From NCBI GenBank assembly GCA_002843155.1, contig PGZD01000014.1:1-46080 (forward strand): a DNA stretch of 46,080 nt, read 5' to 3'. The notes beneath the pieces are model-generated. The model did no database searches. It was given only the letters and a program-made list of their open reading frames with translations, and had not been told where the DNA came from. The translations under genes were made by a program, and so were the position numbers. Position 1 is the stretch's first letter. Each line of letters starts with the position of its first letter. The DNA comes from Gammaproteobacteria bacterium HGW-Gammaproteobacteria-3 (lineage in GTDB: Bacteria; Pseudomonadota; Gammaproteobacteria; Methylococcales; Methylomonadaceae). Shown one piece after another: positions 3,609 through 46,080 of the stretch.

Positions 3609-6600
3609 TCAAATCCTCTGTTGTTGACCCGCGCTGCGACGGCTATAGATGATGGCGTACACACAGGGCACGAAAAATACAGTGAATACCGTTGCGACCA
3701 ACAACCCGCCCATGACCGCACGTCCGAGCGGCGCATTCTGGGAATTGCCTATCGACATGGGCAACATGCCGATAATCATGGCGGCGGCGGTCATGAGCAC
3801 CGGGCGAAAGCGGGCAACACCGGCTTCGATGGCGGCCAGCACGGCATCGCCGTGCATTTCCAAACGTTCGCGCGCATAGGCCACGACCAGAATCGAATTG
3901 GCGGTCGCCGTACCCATGGTCATGATGGCGCCGGTCAAAGCCGGTGTGGAAATGTTGGTGCCGGTCAAAAACAATACCCAGGCTATGCCGGCCAAGGCGC
4001 CGGGCAAGGCGGTAATGATGATGAAAGGGTCGAGCCAGGATTGAAAATTGACCACGATCAACAGATAAATCAATACCACCGCCGCAAGCAGTCCGCCGAT
4101 CATTTCAACATAGGTTTCACGCATGGTTTCCGCCTGGCCGTGAATGGCCAGTTCGGCGGTCTGCGGTAACGCATCCTCCATGCTGTGCGCGGCTACTTCG
4201 ACATCCGCCAGCACGGCGCCGAGATCGCGTCCTTCAGGTGAAACATAAATGTCGAACAGTGGCATGATGTTGCCGTGAGTCACCACGCCCGGCGTTCCAA
4301 CCGCTTTCAATCGGGCCGCATTGCCCAGCAATTTCGGATTCCCGTTCGAAGCGCCGCTATCGTTCCGGTCGATCGGAACGCTCAACAGATCGTTCAGGCT
4401 GGTAAGTTGGGCCTGCGGCGTATAGACATTGATCCGATACGACATGCCGGATGAGCGATCGAGCCAATATTGCTGATCGACCTGTTGACTGCCTGCGGTG
4501 GTCATCAACAGATTGTCGCCGAAGTCTTTCTGGGTAATATCGAGCCCCAATCCGAACGAGCGGTTGGCTTCGACGACCAGGGTCGGCGTGCGCATGGTCT
4601 GCTGAATGACCACATCAGCGGTGCCGGGAATATGCCGCAGTTTGTCGGCCAGCTTGCGGGCGAAGGCGTAATTGTCGTCCATGTCCGGGCCGTTGATTTG
4701 CACATCGATAGGCGCGGGCGAACCGAAATTGAGAATTTTCGCCGTCAGATCGGACGGCTGAAACGTGAACTCGGTGCCTGGATAGCGCTCTCTCAAACCT
4801 TTGCGCAGAATACGCCGATAATCCCATACCGGCGATTGCTCGTTGTTCAGGGAGATGGTCAAATCGCAATCCTGGGAGCCTATGGTCGGCGTCGGAATGA
4901 AGGCGAGATTATGCGGGCCGACCGGCAGTCCGCAATTACTGATCACGCCTTCAACTTGTCCGGGCAGCAATGTTGCGATGTCTTGGGCGACCCGTGAGGC
5001 GATGCGTCCGGCGACTTCGATGCGCGTACCCAGAGGCGCCCGCATGTGCATTTGCAAAGTTCCGGATTTGATTTCCGGAAAGAAGTCGCGGCCGTTGAAA
5101 TAAAACAAAGCCAAAGAAGCCAGGGCCAGTGCCAGCGCAATGCCGACAAAGCGTCCGCGCCGGGCGACCGATTGTTCGAGCAAGGCTTGGTAGCGATCAC
5201 GAAATCGGTTGAACCCGTGTTCGAACCGTTGCTGGAAGCGGCCGAAAACATTTCGGGAGCGTTCGGCCTCATACTCGGGATCGGGTAATGACTCGGCAAA
5301 ATGGGTGCCGCCGATATTGGCCAGGGCCTCTTCCTCGGCTTCGCGGTTGGTCAGCTCGTAGATGACTTCGGCTTCCGCGTCGTCTTCAGGATGATCGGGG
5401 TGCGGGTGCGCCTTGGGTGCGTTGTGATCGATCAACAGATACTTCGCCATGGTTGGCAACAGTGTGAACGACAACACAAAAGAGGCCAGCATCGCGAAAA
5501 TAATCGCCTCCGCCATCGGCATGAACAACCAACCGGATACGCCGCTCAATTCGAACAGCGGAAACCAGACGATGGCGATGGCTAAAGTGGCGACAAAAGT
5601 CGGCAGCACGATCTGATTGGCGGCGTCGATGATCGCCGTTTCCAGCGGTTTGCCCATGGCGATGTGGGTGTCGATATTCTCGATCATCACGGTGGCGTTA
5701 TCGACCAGAACGCCAACCGACAGCGCCAGCCCGCCCAGGGTCATGACATTGATCGATTCGCCGATGAGGTGCAGTACAGTGAGTGAGACCATGATGGACA
5801 GCGGAATGGTCGCGGCGATGATGACCGTCGGCCGCCAGGAGCCTAACAGCAACAGTACGATCAAGCCGACCAGCGCGGCGGCGGTCAGCATTTCGTGCAC
5901 GACATCGGAAATCGAGTCCTTTACGAAAGTTGAGGCGTCATTGATGAGTTTGACTTGCACATCTTTCGGCACGACTTTTTCAATACGAGGAATCATCTTT
6001 TTGACGCCATCGACCACCGCGAGCGTCGAAGCTTCACTGCTTTTCATCACCACAATCATGACGGATTGTTTGCCATCAACCAGTACCGAGTTGGTTTGTA
6101 CCCGACCGGCGAGACCGACATCGGCCACGTCATGCAAATAAATATAGGCATTGCCCTCCCGTTTGATCGGGATATTGTTGAAATCTTCGAGTTTCAGCAC
6201 CGATGCGTTGGTCAGTACGATCCAGTCGGTTGAATTGATTTTTTGGTCACCGCCCGGCAGTACCAGATTCTGTTCACTGACGGCCTTATGCACATCGGCC
6301 GGTGTCAGGTGACGAGCCAGTAATTTCTGCTGGTCGAGATTGATCATGATCTGCATATCCTGGCCACCATAAGGATGCGGCAGAATAGCGCCTTCCACGG
6401 TGACCAGCAACGGGCGGATGCGCATGATGGCGAGATTGTAAAGTTCCGCCGGTGTCAGCGTATCGGACGTGATTTGCAGCGTCGCTACCGGCACCGATGA
6501 CGGCGCCAGTTTCATGATCATCGGCGGCGAAATATCCGGTGGCAAGGCTTTGACCACGGTTTGCGCGATGGCCGCAATATCGGCTTCGGCGGCGGCGTGA

Positions 6601-6905
6601 TCGACGTCGTCCTGCAAGAAGATATTGATGATGCTGCTGCCAAAATAGGAATGGCTTTTTATAGATTTGATACCTTCCACTGTCGAAGTCAAAAAGCGCT
6701 CGAAAATATAGGTGATGCGACCCTCGACATCTTTTGGCAACAAGCCGTCATAAGCCCAGACCACGGAAGTCACGGGGATTTTGATATACGGAAACACGTC
6801 GGTCGGCGATTTGAGCAACGATTGAATTCCGAATATCACGATCAATATCGAAAGAACGACGAAGGTGTAAGGCCTTCTGAGAGCGATAACGACAAGTCTG
6901 TTCAT
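3609..6905 (-). CDS. RND efflux transporter permease (AcrB-like superfamily)
   Basis: The inner-membrane pump of the tripartite system, 1098 residues, with the standard RND layout of a helix at the N-terminus, a large periplasmic loop, six helices (about 340-490), a second loop and six C-terminal helices. The proton relay differs from E. coli AcrB. In TM4 the pair D407-D408 reads D402-N403 (VLVDNATV), and in TM10 the AcrB lysine K940 is replaced by alanine A1002 (GTATANSIL). The cytoplasmic stretch joining the two halves (about 493-575) is long and acidic, with HPHPDHPEDDAEAE. It heads the pump-adaptor-channel operon. The pattern fits a subfamily of putative multidrug or lipid exporters; the substrate is unknown. 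Confidence 0.93.
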   Translation of the reverse strand: MNRLVVIALRRPYTFVVLSILIVIFGIQSLLKSPTDVFPYIKIPVTSVVWAYDGLLPKDVEGRITYIFERFLTSTVEGIKSIKSHSYFGSSIINIFLQDDVDHAAAEADIAAIAQTVVKALPPDISPPMIMKLAPSSVPVATLQITSDTLTPAELYNLAIMRIRPLLVTVEGAILPHPYGGQDMQIMINLDQQKLLARHLTPADVHKAVSEQNLVLPGGDQKINSTDWIVLTNASVLKLEDFNNIPIKREGNAYIYLHDVADVGLAGRVQTNSVLVDGKQSVMIVVMKSSEASTLAVVDGVKKMIPRIEKVVPKDVQVKLINDASTFVKDSISDVVHEMLTAAALVGLIVLLLLGSWRPTVIIAATIPLSIMVSLTVLHLIGESINVMTLGGLALSVGVLVDNATVMIENIDTHIAMGKPLETAIIDAANQIVLPTFVATLAIAIVWFPLFELSGVSGWLFMPMAEAIIFAMLASFVLSFTLLPTMAKYLLIDHNAPKAHPHPDHPEDDAEAEVIYELTNREAEEEALANIGGTHFAESLPDPEYEAERSRNVFGRFQQRFEHGFNRFRDRYQALLEQSVARRGRFVGIALALALASLALFYFNGRDFFPEIKSGTLQMHMRAPLGTRIEVAGRIASRVAQDIATLLPGQVEGVISNCGLPVGPHNLAFIPTPTIGSQDCDLTISLNNEQSPVWDYRRILRKGLRERYPGTEFTFQPSDLTAKILNFGSPAPIDVQINGPDMDDNYAFARKLADKLRHIPGTADVVIQQTMRTPTLVVEANRSFGLGLDITQKDFGDNLLMTTAGSQQVDQQYWLDRSSGMSYRINVYTPQAQLTSLNDLLSVPIDRNDSGASNGNPKLLGNAARLKAVGTPGVVTHGNIMPLFDIYVSPEGRDLGAVLADVEVAAHSMEDALPQTAELAIHGQAETMRETYVEMIGGLLAAVVLIYLLIVVNFQSWLDPFIIITALPGALAGIAWVLFLTGTNISTPALTGAIMTMGTATANSILVVAYARERLEMHGDAVLAAIEAGVARFRPVLMTAAAMIIGMLPMSIGNSQNAPLGRAVMGGLLVATVFTVFFVPCVYAIIYSRRSAGQQQRI

Positions 6906-7322
6906 AAGCGTAACCTGACTGATGTGGTTTAATTTCGGTCATCGGGTCACCGGTTCCGCAACAAGCGTTAATAAACTTATTGAGCAGAATTTAAGCAACT
7001 GGACAACTAAACGATAAGCAATGTACATGCCAATTATTATCACCTTGGTAAATCATAGAGTTGTGTTAAAACAGAGATGATTCAGGAGGAATCAAGGGTG
7101 TTGTGGGGGGGGGTTATGGTTGAAATCCACAATTCAACGTTAGAAAACGGTTGTTTTCAACGATGGGTAAAGAATAGCGCGAAGGCAGCCGCAGGATTAA
7201 CCCCCGTCTCTCTACGCCCCTTCGGGATCTCGCATCGTTGGCACGATAATCGCGGCATGGATTGCAGGTCATAGTCTAACAGGCTGTAAATGACTTATTC
7301 TTCGTGACACTTTAGGAGTAAA
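6906..7322. other. Gene-free stretch between RND operon and small secreted protein
   Basis: About 417 bases with no gene I can support. The left third probably carries the leftward RND promoter. A run of nine or more G lies near 7105. A 65-codon open frame at 7077-7274 has no recognisable domain, and its composition does not look coding. No tRNA-like or terminator-like structure was identified. Confidence 0.5.
6970..6998 (-). promoter_or_regulatory. Candidate sigma70 promoter of the RND operon
   Basis: On the minus strand a TTGCTT (-35-like, 6993-6998) and a TTTATT (-10-like, 6970-6975) are separated by 17 bases, about 65 bases upstream of the pump start. Matches to consensus are partial, so this is only a candidate. 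Confidence 0.3.
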
Positions 7323-7502
7323 ATGATGAAAAACCACATCCATAACATGGCCAGCTATATCGCCTTGATACTTATCTCCGCTTTGCCGTTGTCCATCGAT
7401 GCCTATGCGGAAGCGGAACAAACTTCCAAAACGGCGCCGATGGAAGTCAGCTTAGATGATGATGTGCTTGAAACAACCGGCGTTAAAAAACAAGAAGAGT
7501 AG
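7323..7502 (+). CDS. Small secreted protein of unknown function, 59 residues
   Basis: The ATG at 7323 follows a clear ribosome site (TTTAGGAG, six-base spacing) and opens a 59-codon frame. The product begins MMKNHIHN, has a hydrophobic core of about residues 10-25 (ending LPLSIDAYAEA) and looks like a cleavable signal peptide with a site after AYA. The mature part, about 33 residues, is polar and acidic (a VSLDDDVLETTG stretch) and ends KKQEE. No family was recognised. It may be an isolated gene, because the next gene starts about 190 bases further on. The ribosome site and the signal peptide together are the case for it being real; codon count alone is too small to prove it. Confidence 0.55.
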   Translation: MMKNHIHNMASYIALILISALPLSIDAYAEAEQTSKTAPMEVSLDDDVLETTGVKKQEE

Positions 7503-7517
7503 CGGGCAATGCGAAAC

Positions 7518-7546
7518 CAGGGGTTGTTTCGATGAATCAGCCCCTG
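7518..7546 (+). terminator. Imperfect hairpin downstream of the small secreted protein gene
   Basis: Arms at 7518-7529 and 7535-7546 pair over 12 positions with one T-T mismatch and one G-T wobble, around a 5-base loop. It lies 15 bases past the stop codon of the preceding gene. There is no downstream T run, so it may be a weak terminator or an mRNA-stabilising stem. Confidence 0.35.
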
Positions 7547-7695
7547 CAAAGTACGCGCCACCTTCGATCCGGTTTGACCTGTGTAGAAGTCAAGCAACGC
7601 AGAAGGCGGACAAAAAGACCCGTTAGATACCTCATCTATAAATACAGGTTCTTTGGCTTGGCTATAAGAATTGTCTGAATCACCGGGAGAGAGAC

Positions 7696-8265
7696 ATGAA
7701 TACGCAAAAATTATGGCAACAAACCAAACGGATGATCGGCAAAGGTTTGGTGGCGGTACGGCGCGATATTTATATTTTTACCGCATTGATTTTTTTATCG
7801 ATATTGGGGGTGGGCATTGCCGATGCCCTGGAGCAGCTCGCTCATTGGTATTGGGTGGGGATGGTGCCGGTGTTTTTCGGTGCCTGCCTGTATCTTGAGT
7901 GGCAGACCATCAAACATTCCGGTGTTCCGCTTAGCGAAATTTTATGGGTACAAATTCAGCATTGGCTGGGTGTGGCGGTCGCATTTTATCTGACTTTCGT
8001 ATTGCGCGAAATTGGTAGCCTGAACAATCAAACCACCGGTCTGGATTTACTGCTGGTGCTGGCATTGGGTACTTATCTGGCCGGTATTGCCACGGGTTGG
8101 CTGTTCCGGTTGTTGGGCATTTTTTTAGGTATATGCCTGATTCTGGTGGCCTATATGGAACATTATGTCGCGGTCTTGATTGCCTCCGGGGTAGCTATGC
8201 TGGTGCTATATCATTATCTGGAAAAATCGGTGGATGTCTTCATCAATGAAAATGAACCAAAATAA
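7696..8265 (+). CDS. Integral membrane protein of unknown function
   Basis: A 189-residue protein dominated by hydrophobic helices. A basic N-terminus (MNTQKLWQQTKRMIGKGLVAVRR) precedes about six likely membrane segments: about 26-42, 51-66, 86-102, 112-130, 132-150 and 155-175. The tail is short and polar. I do not recognise a family. The start has a GGGAGAGAG ribosome site directly upstream, and the positive-inside rule favours a cytoplasmic N-terminus. It stands alone: about 190 bases separate it from the small gene before it, and an HsdR remnant follows. Function cannot be inferred from neighbours. Confidence 0.72.
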   Translation: MNTQKLWQQTKRMIGKGLVAVRRDIYIFTALIFLSILGVGIADALEQLAHWYWVGMVPVFFGACLYLEWQTIKHSGVPLSEILWVQIQHWLGVAVAFYLTFVLREIGSLNNQTTGLDLLLVLALGTYLAGIATGWLFRLLGIFLGICLILVAYMEHYVAVLIASGVAMLVLYHYLEKSVDVFINENEPK

Positions 8266-8353
8266 TGTTTTTGCGGCGGTTAACCCCTCTTTAAGTTACG
8301 CAATGTTATATGCCCAATTCAGCCAGTGCAGACCAAAGCAATCCGACCCGCGA

Positions 8354-8556
8354 ATGACTAATAAAAAAGCGCTATCAGAACGCGACATCTGCGCCAAGTT
8401 CATCACGCCTGCGCTGGAGCAGGCAGGTTGGGACATGCAGAAGCAAGTCCGGGAGGAGGTGGGCTTCACCGATGGCCTATCTATGTCAAGGGTAATCTGA
8501 CCACCCGTGGCAAGCGCAAGCGGGCGGATTACATTATCTGTGAACGCGGATACTAA
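8354..8556 (+). pseudogene. hsdR: HsdR (type I restriction endonuclease R subunit) N-terminal remnant, frameshifted
   Basis: The ATG at 8354 starts MTNKKALSERDICAKF, then ALEQAGWDMQKQVREEVGFT, the opening of HsdR proteins, which are normally around 800-1100 residues. Around 8473-8476 the frame shifts. The continuation IYVKGNLTTRGKRKRADYI, also expected for the HsdR nuclease domain, is in another frame and stops at TAA-TAG (8554-8559). Nothing later in the family (PD-(D/E)XK core, helicase domains) is present, and no hsdM or hsdS lies nearby. This is the residue of a lost type I restriction system, cut off just before the LysR gene. Two lesions (frameshift plus truncation) make function impossible. 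Confidence 0.85.
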
Positions 8557-8561
8557 TAGCA

Positions 8562-9431
8562 ATGGACATCGAGCAAATCAAAACATTTTTAAGTGTCGCC
8601 GCCAATGGCAGCTTTCAGGAGGCGGCCAAGCGGCTGTATGTCACACAATCGACGGTGAGCACCCGCATCCAACGATTGGAGATTTATCTGCGAACGCCAC
8701 TGTTCGTGCGTAACCGTTCAGGTGCGCAATTGACATTGCAAGGCCGCCGCTTTTTGCGTCATGCCAAAACATTGTTATTGACATTGGAACAAGCCCGCCA
8801 CGATATTGGCTTGCCCGACCGATTTCGCGCCAGCATCACCTTAGGCGCGCGTATCGCGTTATGGGAGGAGGCCTTGTTGCCGAGATGGATTGGAGAAATA
8901 CGGAGGCTATCGCCGGATGTTTCCATACACTGCGATATTGGTTTTGAGGAAGATTTAATGCGCTGTCTGATCGAAGGCACTTTGGACATTGGCCTGATGT
9001 ATACGCCGCAGCACAGTCCGGGTCTTCAGGTCGAGCACCTGTTCGATGAAACCCTGGTGTTGCTGAGCACCGAACCGGATCAGCTCTGGCCGAACGATGA
9101 TTATATTTATGTCGATTGGGGGCCGGCTTTTTATGCCCAGCACAGCAACAACTATCCAAATCTCGAACGTCCCGCGCAAGTGGTCAATATCGGCTGGCTC
9201 GGGGTGCAGTTGATTATCCGCAATGGTGGTTCGTGTTTTTTGCCTATTCGAATGGCCGAAACGTTTATTCAGGCTCAGAAACTCCATATCGTTCCCGATA
9301 GTCTGCAATTCAAGTTACCGGCCTATATGGTTTACCCACGGGACAACGATTCGAGTATTTTGCCGCCGGTGCTCGATATACTGCGTGCCCTGGCGACGGT
9401 TGAACGGCAAAAACAGTATTCCCTGGGTTAG
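8562..9431 (+). CDS. LysR-family transcriptional regulator
   Basis: A 289-residue regulator with an N-terminal winged helix-turn-helix (about residues 2-60; FQEAAKRLYVTQSTVSTRIQRLE) and a LysR substrate-binding domain (about 88-285). The effector pocket residues cannot be matched to a known ligand. Members usually bind as tetramers and regulate a divergent neighbour. Here the preceding sequence on either strand is an HsdR remnant, so the usual divergent target may have been lost or lie elsewhere. The gene after it is transcribed toward it, leaving 40 bases between stop codons. Confidence 0.93.
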   Translation: MDIEQIKTFLSVAANGSFQEAAKRLYVTQSTVSTRIQRLEIYLRTPLFVRNRSGAQLTLQGRRFLRHAKTLLLTLEQARHDIGLPDRFRASITLGARIALWEEALLPRWIGEIRRLSPDVSIHCDIGFEEDLMRCLIEGTLDIGLMYTPQHSPGLQVEHLFDETLVLLSTEPDQLWPNDDYIYVDWGPAFYAQHSNNYPNLERPAQVVNIGWLGVQLIIRNGGSCFLPIRMAETFIQAQKLHIVPDSLQFKLPAYMVYPRDNDSSILPPVLDILRALATVERQKQYSLG

Positions 9432-40960: not shown

Positions 40961-40991
40961 TTGACTCCGTATATGACTACGGAAGTAAGCT
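40961..40991 (+). promoter_or_regulatory. mer operator/promoter (MerR-regulated)
   Basis: TTGACT (-35, 40961-40966) and TAAGCT (-10-like, 40986-40991) are separated by 19 bases, the overlong spacer typical of MerR-controlled promoters. The spacer contains the CCGTA-TACGG dyad (40967-40983 region) that MerR binds. The arrangement closely matches the well-known Tn501/Tn21 sequence. Confidence 0.93.
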
Positions 40992-41026
40992 TACGCTATT
41001 GTTTTCATTTTCGACAGGAGAAAGGC

Positions 41027-41377
41027 ATGGCTGAATCACAAAACGGGCGCGGTGCGCTCTTCGCCGGCGGAGTGGCCGCCATTCTCGCCTCCACCTGCTG
41101 TCTGGGGCCGCTGGTGCTGATCACTCTGGGCTTCAGCGGTGCCTGGATCGGCAATCTGACCGTACTGGAACCGTACCGGCCGCTGTTCATCGGCGCGGCG
41201 CTGGTGGCCTTGTTTTTCGCCTGGCAGCGTATTTACCGACCGGCAACCGCCTGCAAGCCGGGCGAGGTCTGCGCCATTCCACAGGTGCGCGGCACCTACA
41301 AGCTTATTTTCTGGGTCGTATTCGCACTGGTAGTGGTTGCGCTTGGATTCCCTTACGTCCTTCCTTTGTTTTATTGA
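41027..41377 (+). CDS. merT: MerT, mercuric ion transport protein
   Basis: A 116-residue inner-membrane Hg(II) importer. Three helices (about residues 13-34, 46-66, 92-112) flank the metal cysteines C24-C25 (STCCLGP) in the first helix and C76 and C82 in the cytoplasmic loop. I start at the ATG at 41027 because it follows an AGGAG site and gives the normal MerT N-terminus (MAESQNGRG). The longer frame from 40961 would read through the promoter. It feeds Hg(II) to MerA in the cytoplasm after MerP capture. Confidence 0.97.
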   Translation: MAESQNGRGALFAGGVAAILASTCCLGPLVLITLGFSGAWIGNLTVLEPYRPLFIGAALVALFFAWQRIYRPATACKPGEVCAIPQVRGTYKLIFWVVFALVVVALGFPYVLPLFY

Positions 41378-41389
41378 CCGGAGATCATC

Positions 41390-43080
<1,691 letters not shown>

Positions 43081-43197
43081 AGAAAAAAAGGAGTTTGTGG
43101 TATTCGATAAAGTGCAGCTCGCAGGTTGGGTTGCAAACAGTGCCCCCCAACGTTTTTCAGCTACGCAATCTGAGCCTTTTGTGACAGGCGGAATTGT

Positions 43198-43401
43198 TTA
43201 ACCGGGAACGACATTGGCGGCAGTCAAGCCTTTGGGACCTGATTCAATGTCAAAAGTGACCGCCTGCCCCGGAGTCAAAGTTTTAAAACCGGCTCCCTGG
43301 ATAACTGAATGGTGAACGAAGACATCTTCCGCGCCTTCCGAAGGCTCGATAAAACCAAAACCTTTAGTATTGTTGAACCACTTTACAGTGCCTGTTGCCA
43401 T
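43198..43401 (-). CDS. Cold-shock domain protein (CspA family)
   Basis: A 67-residue single-strand nucleic acid-binding protein. RNP1 (KGFGFIE, about residues 13-19) and RNP2 (VFVHH, 27-31) are intact in the usual OB-fold. A good ribosome site (TTAGGAG) precedes the ATG. Such proteins act as RNA chaperones; not all respond to cold. It lies between merA (convergent) and the CBS gene, with 118 bases upstream where its leader would lie. Confidence 0.95.
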
Positions 43402-43482
43402 TTGAAAACTCCTAACTCACGACTTGAAAAACGATGCCCGATGCAAAATGATCAATCCGCGCCCAAACTCAAGAGCGGCGCT

Positions 43483-43517
43483 TGACCGGCGCTATTGTAC
43501 TGTCTTTTTGCCGGTCA
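43483..43517. repeat. Inverted repeat between the CBS and csp genes
   Basis: TGACCGGC (43483-43490) and GCCGGTCA (43510-43517) are perfect 8-base arms with a 19-base loop, just downstream of the CBS gene stop. It may be the operon's terminator in the leftward direction, but there is no clear following T run on that strand. Confidence 0.4.
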
Positions 43518-43519
43518 TG

Positions 43520-43927
43520 TCATCCGCATATTTGATACAGTCCATCCAGTACCAGGGCATTGGGGCTGACCATGCCGAGCACGGTATGATTTTCCACGAC
43601 CGGCGCCCTGACCAGGTCATAGCAGGCAAAAAGACGTGAGCACATACGAATGTCCATGTCGGGATGCACTTGTATGACCGGGCAGGTCATGATTTCGTAG
43701 ACATTGACCCGGCTGGGCGATTTGTCTTTGGCCAGAACATGCCGGGCGATATCGCCGGAAGTGATCATGCCGTATTCATCCAGATCATGGCGCCTGTTGA
43801 CCAGCAGCACAGAGGTCTGCTGCGCTTTCATCATTTTCAGAGCGTCACTGACGGTCGCGGCGCCCTCGATGGTGGCGAAGGTGGTTTTCATAATATCCCG
43901 GACGCGGATTGATTTTTGTTCGTTCAT
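43520..43927 (-). CDS. Tandem CBS-domain protein
   Basis: A 135-residue protein with two CBS motifs (about residues 9-66 and 72-131), the usual adenosine-nucleotide-sensing pair. VRDIMKTTFATIE and EIMTCPVIQVHPDMDI open the two motifs; GMITSGDIARHVL closes the first. Such pairs usually bind AMP, ATP or SAM and modulate a partner. Its ATG overlaps the PII-like gene's stop by four bases. As the last gene of a DUF1538-DUF1538-PII-CBS unit it is likely a second regulator of the membrane proteins. Confidence 0.86.
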   Translation of the reverse strand: MNEQKSIRVRDIMKTTFATIEGAATVSDALKMMKAQQTSVLLVNRRHDLDEYGMITSGDIARHVLAKDKSPSRVNVYEIMTCPVIQVHPDMDIRMCSRLFACYDLVRAPVVENHTVLGMVSPNALVLDGLYQICG

Positions 43928-44274
43928 ATTTTATCTTCCAGTTCATGGGTTAATTCTTCGACCTGATGCATCACGCCGATGGCGTCTTCCACGTCTATTT
44001 TAAAGGCGATGCCGGTGCCGGGTTTAAGGTCGAATTCGGCCGCTTTGGCAATTTTTTCAAGAATAGGCCGACTCAGATGCTCTTCGACCAGGAACAGCAG
44101 AACATCGCGCTGGGCTTCGAGATTCAAGCCAAAAAAGGTTTTGGATTTTTTCAGTCCTTCGCCGCGCGCCTGACTGATGACAGTCGCGCCTTTAGCGCCG
44201 TGATTACGCGCGGTTTCCAGCACCAGGTCGGTTTTATCATCTTCGACAAAAGCAATAATGAGTTTGAAATGCAT
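43924..44274 (-). CDS. PII-like (GlnB-fold) signal protein
   Basis: A 116-residue protein of the nitrogen regulatory PII fold, trimeric in known members. It lacks the canonical GlnB T-loop signatures such as the uridylylated tyrosine region. In its place are residues VISQARGEG and LKKSKTFFGLN (about 32-52), and the C-terminus ends with acidic VEELTHELEDKI. I therefore call it PII-like rather than GlnB/GlnK. It lies between DUF1538 membrane proteins and a CBS protein in one operon, so it probably senses a ligand and controls the membrane proteins. The ligand is unknown. Confidence 0.8.
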   Translation of the reverse strand: MHFKLIIAFVEDDKTDLVLETARNHGAKGATVISQARGEGLKKSKTFFGLNLEAQRDVLLFLVEEHLSRPILEKIAKAAEFDLKPGTGIAFKIDVEDAIGVMHQVEELTHELEDKI

Positions 44275-44346
44275 ATTTTTTCTCAGAACGTATTTTAAAA
44301 GCTACTACAAGGCTCGATTGCTGCGTTGCGCGGTACTCTTTAATCC

Positions 44347-45114
44347 TTAAGACAGGCTGCCCCGGTTGCGCCATACGGCTATCTGGGCATAGCCCAATAC
44401 GGCAATAATGGGAAACAAACTGGCGAAGGCGATGAGTCCGAAGCCATCCAGCAGAGGGTTTCTCCCGGGTACTGTGGTGGCAAGGCCCAGTCCCAGTGCC
44501 GTGATCAGCGGTACGGTGACCGTCGAAGTGGTGACGCCGCCGGAATCATAAGCCAGACCGATGATCATTTTAGGCGCGAAAAAAGTTTGCACAATGACGA
44601 TGATGTAACCAGCGATAATGTAATAATACAGCTCGGTTCCTGACACAATCCTGAACGCACCCAGGGCGATACCGAAAGCCACGCCCAAAGACACCGCGAT
44701 ACGCAGCCCCCAGGCACGGATGGCGCCGCCGGAAATGCTTTCAGCCTTAAGCGCCACAGCCAGCAAGGATGGTTCAGCCAGGGTTGTGGCAAAGCCGATG
44801 CTGGCGGCAAAAATATAAACCCATAAATACGCGTGCCAGGCTACGGTTTCGTCAGGCGCAATGCCGATAAATTCCGGCGCAGTCAGTTGTTCGGCCATTA
44901 ATTTGCCCAGTGGAAACAGCGCCATTTCCAGTCCTTCCAGAAAGAAAGCGACACCGAGCAAGACATAAATAAAACCGGTAAAAGTTTTGCCGGGGTGAGG
45001 TAACGGCTTGCGTATTACCAGTAACTGAAAGCTTATGATAATAGCGACTATTGGCAGAATATCCCGTCCGGTGGCCAATAAGCTGCCTGAAAAATGTATC
45101 AGCCAGTCGATCAT
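44347..45114 (-). CDS. DUF1538 integral membrane protein (second copy)
   Basis: A 255-residue, six- to seven-helix membrane protein. The motif [17 protein letters not shown] (about residues 60-77) and, near the C-terminus, [20 protein letters not shown] (about 188-207) are the DUF1538 hallmarks; the latter may form a pore or substrate site. The upstream paralogue has the same two motifs. DUF1538 is often found as two fused or neighbouring copies. The start overlaps the first copy's stop by four bases. The 72 bases between it and the PII-like gene show nothing notable. Transport of an ion or small metabolite is a reasonable but unproved guess. Confidence 0.83.
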
Positions 45115-45845
45115 CGAAACATTCCATACACCATGACAAAAATCATCGGCGTCAAGGAAGCGAAGGCGATCAAACCGAAACCATCGATCATAGGATTACG
45201 GCCTTTAATGGCGGATGCCAGTCCAAGCCCCAGGGCGGTGACCAGTGGCACGGTAATGGTGGACGTTGTAACGCCTCCGGAATCGTAAGCAATACCAATT
45301 ATTTCAGGTGGCGCGAAAGGTGTCAGCATGATGACGGCGATATAGCCGCCAATAATCAGATAATGCAGCGGCCAGCCGCGAATGATGCGCAGCACACCGA
45401 TCACGATGGCAAAACCAACCGAGAGCGCTACCGTGATTCTAAGCCCCAAGGCGTAATCATTTTTCGCGCTTTCGCCCGCTTCGATGATGTTGCCTTTGCT
45501 GGCAATGGCGGCGGCTTCATCGGAGACGGCAATCAGCGCCGGTTCCGCGACAGTCGTGCCAAAGCCTAAGCAAAAAGCGAAAACCAGCAACCAGGCGACA
45601 CTGCCTTTACGGGCAAACGCATGTGCCATTGCTTCACCGATAGGAAACAGGCTTTGCTCCAGGCCTTGTATAAAGAGTGTCAAACCCAAAATCACAAATA
45701 CGGAACCTGCAATCATGCTGGAAACATCGGCGATGGCTTGACGGAACACCAGCGTCTGAAAAATGATCACGACAGCAAAAATCGGCGCCAGATCCAGGCA
45801 ACTGCTGAATAATTGTCTGATGAAACGATTGGTGCGAAAAGACAT
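45111..45845 (-). CDS. DUF1538 integral membrane protein (first copy)
   Basis: A 244-residue membrane protein with the same repeated motifs as the next gene: [17 protein letters not shown] (about residues 60-76) and [20 protein letters not shown] (about 188-207), followed by [18 protein letters not shown]. About six to seven hydrophobic segments are apparent. It starts the four-gene leftward operon DUF1538, DUF1538, PII-like, CBS. Function is unknown. The two copies may pair as a heterodimer, by analogy with the fused double-domain forms; the analogy is from family knowledge and not from this sequence. Confidence 0.84.
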
Positions 45846-45901
45846 TCAAGCTCCTTGAGTGGTTTTCAATTGTATAGCAAAGCCTTGAATGACGGAAATA
45901 A

Positions 45902-46080
45902 ATGCTATCAGCTCATGCCTGCGACGAGCAATCAGAAGAAACGTCGGCAACGGCCGAATTACCGGTTCCGGATTCGACTGAGTCTTTGCCGGATGCTTTA
46001 CACAGCCAGGACTCGGCAACGCCTCCAGCGACGGCCGGTGATACCGGCCAGCCCAAAAAAGCCGGACGCAGGATCGGTAG
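45902..46080 (+). CDS. Partial ORF running off the right edge
   Basis: An open frame from the ATG at 45902 to the window end, at least 59 residues. The start is preceded by an ACGGA-like ribosome site, and the frame is divergent from the DUF1538 operon. The visible part is acidic and rich in S, T, A and P (for example EQSEETSATAELPVP), then turns basic (QPKKAGRRIG). This looks like a disordered N-terminal region, not a folded domain. The remainder and the function cannot be judged. Confidence 0.4.
   Translation, partial: MLSAHACDEQSEETSATAELPVPDSTESLPDALHSQDSATPPATAGDTGQPKKAGRRIG

Follow-up and report, generated by a model that had tools for sequence, protein, structure and literature searches.

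The four genes at positions 43520-45845 on the minus strand of the window, the whole stretch of 46,080 bases that was analysed, may encode a UmpAB-type cation/proton antiporter together with its own cytoplasmic PII/CBS control, the antiporter being gated by the T-loop of the PII-like protein. This is the reading that we lean towards, with some reserve, on the basis of sequence comparison and of analogy with other PII-controlled transporters. The initial annotation had put the operon forward as a strong candidate for an undescribed regulated transport system; for the transporter part this did not stand, since the membrane pair falls into the known UmpAB-type antiporter family, whereas the regulated system as a whole is apparently new within the literature searched. 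The gene content it had proposed was confirmed by open reading frames and Pfam, and runs in the 5' to 3' order DUF1538, DUF1538, PII-like and CBS pair from position 45845 to 43520:

45111..45845, minus strand: umpA-type gene, DUF1538 membrane protein, 244 aa (ORF, Pfam, NCBIfam)
44347..45114, minus strand: umpB-type gene, DUF1538 membrane protein, 255 aa (ORF, Pfam, NCBIfam)
43924..44274, minus strand: PII-like sensor gene, 116 aa (ORF, Pfam, predicted fold)
43520..43927, minus strand: CBS-pair sensor gene, 135 aa (ORF, Pfam, closest solved relative)
45111..45114, minus strand: umpA/umpB overlap, 4 bases (ORF coordinates)
43924..43927, minus strand: PII/CBS overlap, 4 bases (ORF coordinates)

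The adjacent, homologous DUF1538 genes overlap at stop and start in the layout typical of UmpAB, as they do in 63 of 75 relatives, and the PII/CBS overlap is likewise 4 bases long in 67 of the 74 relatives measured. According to the ORF coordinates a 72-base gap separates the umpB-type gene from the PII-like gene, so that the overlaps, from which a single unit had been deduced, do not by themselves prove a four-gene unit; the unit itself holds, owing to the conserved gene order in relatives. The end of the window is also the end of the contig, and the region upstream of the umpA-type gene is visible only to base 46080. A promoter and terminator scan returned 7 and 5 sites against 2.5 and 3.7 expected and was given no weight, and an Rfam scan of 42800-46080 gave no match at gathering score. 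The operon was also considered as an anti-phage system and this was rejected, as a PADLOC search gave no match at E<=0.01. Past the downstream end of the CBS gene, and likewise on the minus strand, 43198-43401 encodes a cold-shock domain protein. The plus strand at 40961-43080 carries genes for a small membrane protein, a 91-aa protein and a 470-aa pyridine nucleotide-disulphide oxidoreductase (the domain scan covered the oxidoreductase only), which we take to be a mercury resistance set with MerT-like, MerP-like (91 aa) and MerA-like (470 aa) members.

The linkage of DUF1538 with PII is real. In a recurrence survey set beforehand as the refuting test, PII adjoined DUF1538 as a rule in every sample and CBS was found in most of the Proteobacteria sampled, which supports the earlier suggestion that the two small proteins form a sensor module. 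DUF1538 was present in 47 of 61 genomes of the same family and order, and PII and CBS followed umpB in 28 of 29 loci of the best-scoring relatives, the remaining one being cut by a contig end. Among named genomes (the best 80 of 585 confirmed stretches, in which the nearest named relatives of UmpB were Methylococcales methanotrophs), PII followed umpAB in 79 of 80 loci and CBS in 76; L118 has neither, L140 has PII without CBS, and the loci L078 and L127 stop close to the PII gene. The same four genes, PII and CBS included, occur in the class-sample genome nearest the characterised UmpB (469.9 bits, under the cut-off). The genes on either side show no conservation: the neighbour family met most often occurs in 18 of the 80 loci.

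In the phylum sample (398 genomes, taken as Pseudomonadota), DUF1538 was found in 126 genomes and a PII-profile match in 130, and among the matches listed the PII lay within 2 kb of DUF1538 and on the same strand in 90 of 93 genomes. Counted by PII matches of 56 bits or more, 121 were listed, of which 93 adjoined DUF1538 in a first count; among the 26 examined of the other 28, five proved adjacent after all (one of them to a DUF1538 fragment), three were PII-CBS pairs apart from DUF1538, 16 were non-adjacent and two were cut at contig ends. The intact pairs away from DUF1538 are L223, L224 and L226 (genomes G144, G176 and G216, all of one family), and the non-adjacent subfamily paralogues are L147-L155, L158, L159, L228, L230, L231, L233 and L234; several of these paralogues lie, as judged by eye, near a flavoprotein-like ORF and near another ORF, of about 462 aa, that recurs. 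The 16 places and the three separate pairs count against gating, and they favor an explanation in which PII and CBS share a transcript with umpAB and have other targets, such as nitrogen, carbon or energy metabolism. We regard this as quite improbable, considering that the flanking genes vary while the PII stays, and that for nitrogen control this genome encodes a pair of ordinary GlnB/GlnK-type proteins. Linked genes that carry the annotation of P-II family nitrogen regulators are probably not nitrogen regulators.

The association extends to plasmids and to divergent lineages. Eight records of a plasmid collection matched UmpB, and PII stood next to DUF1538 in all six examined. In five Bacillota plasmid records the DUF1538 repeats are fused in one protein and the PII, by the subfamily profile, is a two-domain tandem; Pfam recovered both PII domains in two of three such proteins and one domain in the third. 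A Methylocystis rosea plasmid (L209, 3285-8648) carries two DUF1538 genes and a single PII without CBS, near insertion-sequence genes. A further set of 78 loci, which was not a random draw, combined the 30 top-scoring loci of the phylum sample with each fourth one of the 80 named loci and 28 chosen to include divergent lineages; nearly all have two DUF1538 repeats, separate or fused. PII was present in 75 of these 78 (missing from L118, L160 and L181) and was followed by CBS in 43, by a second PII in 18 and by nothing visible in 14, some of the last being cut at the locus end. The partner that stays constant is therefore PII, while CBS seems to stand in for a second PII. Both occur together only in L156, where a fused and a split UmpAB module stand side by side (4496-8687) and enclose PII-CBS-PII.

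Both membrane proteins belong to Pfam DUF1538 (232.1 bits, E=5.6e-69 for the first and 226.4 bits, E=3.1e-67 for the second, against a cut-off of 22.6). The best NCBIfam match of the 244-aa protein is UmpA (356.5 bits, below the equivalog cut-off of 490) and that of the 255-aa protein is UmpB (320 bits, below the equivalog cut-off of 500), and these models align along nearly the whole length of the pair. The GLE-x2-LFP-x-G and [10 protein letters not shown] motifs were found in each protein, as had been noted from the sequence, and the proposed duplication of transporter subunits is supported by the pairing of homologous DUF1538 proteins. Because the scores remain below the equivalog cut-offs, the pair was filed as same family rather than as equivalog, and on these sequence matches it very likely belongs to the UmpAB antiporter family.

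UmpAB of Halomonas zhaodongensis was described in 2017 as an Na+(Li+,K+)/H+ antiporter that works as a heterodimer between pH 6.5 and 9.5, and was active in E. coli without the sensors, so that PII and CBS are not needed for transport as such (PMC5484666). The window pair resembles it in its paired homologous DUF1538 proteins, overlapping genes and predicted seven transmembrane segments each (PMC5484666; NF041627/NF041628), and differs from it in scoring below the equivalog cut-offs. Of the ORFs on the cloned Halomonas fragment, three are intact and one is truncated, with no PII or CBS gene among them; the accessible sections of the paper do not raise the idea that the subunits are oppositely oriented, and neither P-II or PII nor CBS occurs as a term in its main text (PMC5484666). 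Likewise, P-II and PII are absent from the accessible sections of the cable-bacteria papers that mention UmpAB homologues. Our literature search found nothing on a DUF1538-PII-CBS linkage; most subscription journals lay outside it, and print coverage may exist.

Na+(Li+,K+)/H+ antiport is predicted for the window pair, while scores under the equivalog cut-offs mean that its substrate could differ. The same PII/CBS-gated architecture might serve another cation or an anion, the Halomonas assay having caught one activity of a broader family. In favor of this are both scores, well under their cut-offs, the fact that 0 of 369 genomes passed the UmpB cut-off in the class-wide search, the existence of deeply diverged fused DUF1538 lineages, and the PII-like control known for the bicarbonate transporter SbtA (PMC8352866). 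We nevertheless consider a different substrate unlikely, given the nearly full-length match to the UmpA and UmpB models and the AEP and D.GGV residues, which are invariant in each subunit in 22 relatives (the Halomonas sequences lying outside this comparison).

The two subunits carry opposite charge biases. Mean lysine plus arginine counts for the N-terminus, loops 1 to 6 and the C-terminus were 1.93, 0.13, 2.01, 2.55, 1.95, 0.25, 1.97 and 0.13 in UmpA and 0.31, 2.47, 1.00, 2.32, 0.99, 0.99, 1.00 and 4.05 in UmpB, with loop limits set from hydropathy, in 75 of the 80 loci (L068, L094, L101, L129 and L131 were dropped before counting). The exception is loop 3, where the difference was not significant (p 0.086; the p-values ignore relatedness and are uncorrected for it) and UmpA is rich in acidic residues (4.37 vs 0.81). 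Read by the positive-inside rule, this indicates N-in/C-out for UmpA and N-out/C-in for UmpB, each with seven predicted crossings, and with opposite topologies the antiporter resembles one transporter that has been divided into halves inverted relative to each other. Natural UmpA-UmpB fusions (n=22) agree: their linkers, of 23-106 residues, reach a maximum 19-residue hydropathy of 1.25 and show no clear transmembrane stretch, and lysine plus arginine was higher in loops 2+4+6 than in loops 1+3+5 of repeat 1 in 21 of 22, with one tie, and higher in loops 1+3+5 than in loops 2+4+6 of repeat 2, again in 21 of 22 with one tie. The fusion-like frame of L131 was excluded from this set; its linker of 56 residues (maximum hydropathy 0.92) contains an ATG, and two separate proteins may therefore be present. 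An internal repeat within one subunit was rejected, hhalign of the halves giving a probability of 0.3%. In a tree of DUF1538 repeats, UmpA-type and UmpB-type halves separate within the main proteobacterial group, deep branches are unresolved and the two repeats of the Bacillota group pair as sisters, and for these reasons we do not claim one ancestral duplication.

The L131 frame had been tried as a one-chain UmpA-UmpB model, where MAFFT put UmpB rows onto the UmpA half; that alignment was consequently left out of the prediction, and UmpB was predicted alone. The single-chain model (mean pLDDT 93.4, pTM 0.85) has helices at residues 2-34, 41-77, 80-83, 93-112, 115-128, 134-158, 162-179, 182-194, 200-214 and 220-254. 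From the helix boundaries of the model, not its coordinates, residues 93-128 and 182-214 may be read as a pair of crossings with breaks where the conserved motifs AEP and SGGVT lie. Such helix breaks at conserved motifs typify ion sites. Foldseek returned 0 matches of the UmpB model to the PDB with E<=0.001, and in a second structural comparison the highest transporter row was 4u9n (Z 5.1, 112 residues, 4.3 A), with the MgtE entry 2zy9 matching the same region (Z 4.5). Given the Foldseek null and these middling Z scores, no fold family is claimed for UmpB.

The PII-like protein matches Pfam P-II at 41.6 bits (E=1.6e-10, cut-off 25), and the two other PII proteins of this genome, both of the GlnB/GlnK type, score 113 and 112 bits; no other protein of the genome matched the subfamily profile at E<=0.001. 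Its two loops lie at:

44101..44166, minus strand: T-loop, residues 37-58, with the subfamily pattern RGEGxxxxKTFFGLxLExQRDV
44005..44034, minus strand: B-loop, residues 81-90, FDLKPGTGIA replacing TGKIGDGKIF

The T-loop contains no tyrosine, which bears out the earlier remark that the usual GlnB modification site is missing. Aligned with the two GlnB/GlnK-type proteins of the same genome, it has a five-residue gap, the B-loop GDGK has become GTGI and the C-terminal IRIR has become IGVM. The residues at the places of GlnK K90, R101 and R103, which we take to be the ATP-phosphate residues, are also replaced, in line with the prediction of a non-classical ligand; by these sequence features the protein is not GlnB/GlnK. 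G38, G40, F47, G49, G86, G88 and I89 are invariant in 62 of 62 subfamily sequences, and the invariance of the last three, in the B-loop, suggests that a ligand pocket has been kept. The predicted AF2 fold of the single chain (mean pLDDT 80.4, with T-loop residues 40-46 below 50) is the ferredoxin-like PII fold; its best Foldseek match is a PII-like protein (E=3.8e-6), and a structural comparison gave PII, PII-like and CutA chains at Z 10.9-12.1 in the 50 rows shown. The protein is presumably a trimer. A Borrelia PII-like protein, considered as a relative, turned out from the accessible part of its source to be of another family. As for ligands, a diadenylate cyclase search of this genome gave no match, which speaks against c-di-AMP here and makes it unlikely, although other genomes may differ.

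The CBS protein matches Pfam CBS in two stretches, the CBS repeats (55.6 bits, E=6.9e-15, cut-off 24). Its family is conserved around DEYG...DI and RVNvYEIM, and D50, G53, E78, P83, V110 and G118 are identical in all 74 sequences compared (73 relatives and the window, those under 125 aa dropped). CBS domains have the nucleotide motif G-h-h-T/S-x-x-D; here the Asp is retained in 68 of 74 sequences and the Thr/Ser is not, which counts against the reading that we prefer. CBS pairs are usually ligand sensors, and CBS-CP12 binds AMP. By sequence, CBS-CP12 (PDB 5nmu) is the closest solved relative (E=1.1e-23); the match is limited to residues 5-123 of its 208-residue chain, and the window CBS pair differs in standing alone beside an antiporter gene. 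The CBS protein may be a second sensor, of adenylate type.

The near-constant linkage, the strong conservation of the T-loop and the loss of canonical nucleotide residues would also be consistent with PII-like and CBS proteins that are constitutive structural subunits or assembly factors and not ligand-driven regulators. We find this improbable in view of the usual sensor role of CBS pairs and of the invariant B-loop residues, and two subunits suffice for activity in E. coli (PMC5484666). Overall, these sequence-based results strengthen the sensor-plus-gate idea for the operon.

In the mechanism that we prefer, UmpA and UmpB, as homologous seven-helix subunits of opposite orientation, would form one inverted-repeat exchanger, whose cytoplasmic docking surface would consist of the UmpA N-terminus and even loops and the basic C-terminal tail of UmpB. 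The PII trimer would dock on this face by its conserved, altered T-loop and thereby block or release ion exchange; direct gating of UmpAB by PII seems to us fairly likely by analogy. The state of PII would be set by a ligand near the B-loop other than the classical Mg-ATP and 2-oxoglutarate. With the GlnK phosphate ligands gone, an AMP-, ADP- or cAMP-like molecule, as in SbtB, is the best guess, and we propose an adenylate tentatively, at somewhat less than even confidence. The CBS protein, translated from its overlapping start, would provide a second adenylate-type input acting with PII, replaced elsewhere by a second PII. Such an arrangement could adjust the export of Na+/K+ and the import of protons to the energy charge and ionic state, either limiting the loss of Na+/K+ and the entry of protons under energy shortage or freeing exchange when the pH is alkaline or salt is high.

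Two membrane proteins, an ammonium channel and a bicarbonate symporter, are known targets of plugging by PII proteins (PMC8352866), and the operon has likenesses to both systems. As in SbtA-SbtB, a transporter gene stands beside a non-classical PII-like gene; there, the T-loop of SbtB, with AMP bound, enters the inter-domain cleft of SbtA in a model of docking on the cytoplasmic face, and, according to a report cited there, SbtA can be regulated in vivo without SbtB (PMC8352866). The window system differs in its transporter, the neighbour of the PII-like gene being DUF1538 and not sbtA, and in its CBS partner, none being mentioned for SbtB in the accessible sections of that paper (PMC8352866); moreover, the PII-like protein has no cysteine along its whole length, and thus lacks the CGPxGC redox loop of some SbtB. 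With AmtB-GlnK, where the T-loop acts as the plug, it shares a PII beside its channel (PMC8352866), whereas the transporter is different, the T-loop tyrosine and five T-loop residues are missing and the ATP-phosphate residues are replaced.

We hold the chances to be even that, across phyla, DUF1538 antiporters are split or fused 7+7 TM inverted-repeat exchangers, nearly always with a PII gate and an exchangeable sensor slot (CBS or a second PII), and possibly of a new fold. If true, there would be a widespread, undescribed PII control of cation/proton exchange, possibly on a fold without a solved relative, and the opposite topologies would make UmpAB a transporter of two inverted halves. The linkage offers a handle on DUF1538, a family with one functional study in the literature searched, and the pairing in very distant bacteria suggests dedicated sensors that switch this ion pump, apparently unstudied so far. 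If a cation/proton antiporter does have a dedicated PII gate, the reach of PII control would widen, in many lineages, to the homeostasis of Na+, K+ and pH.
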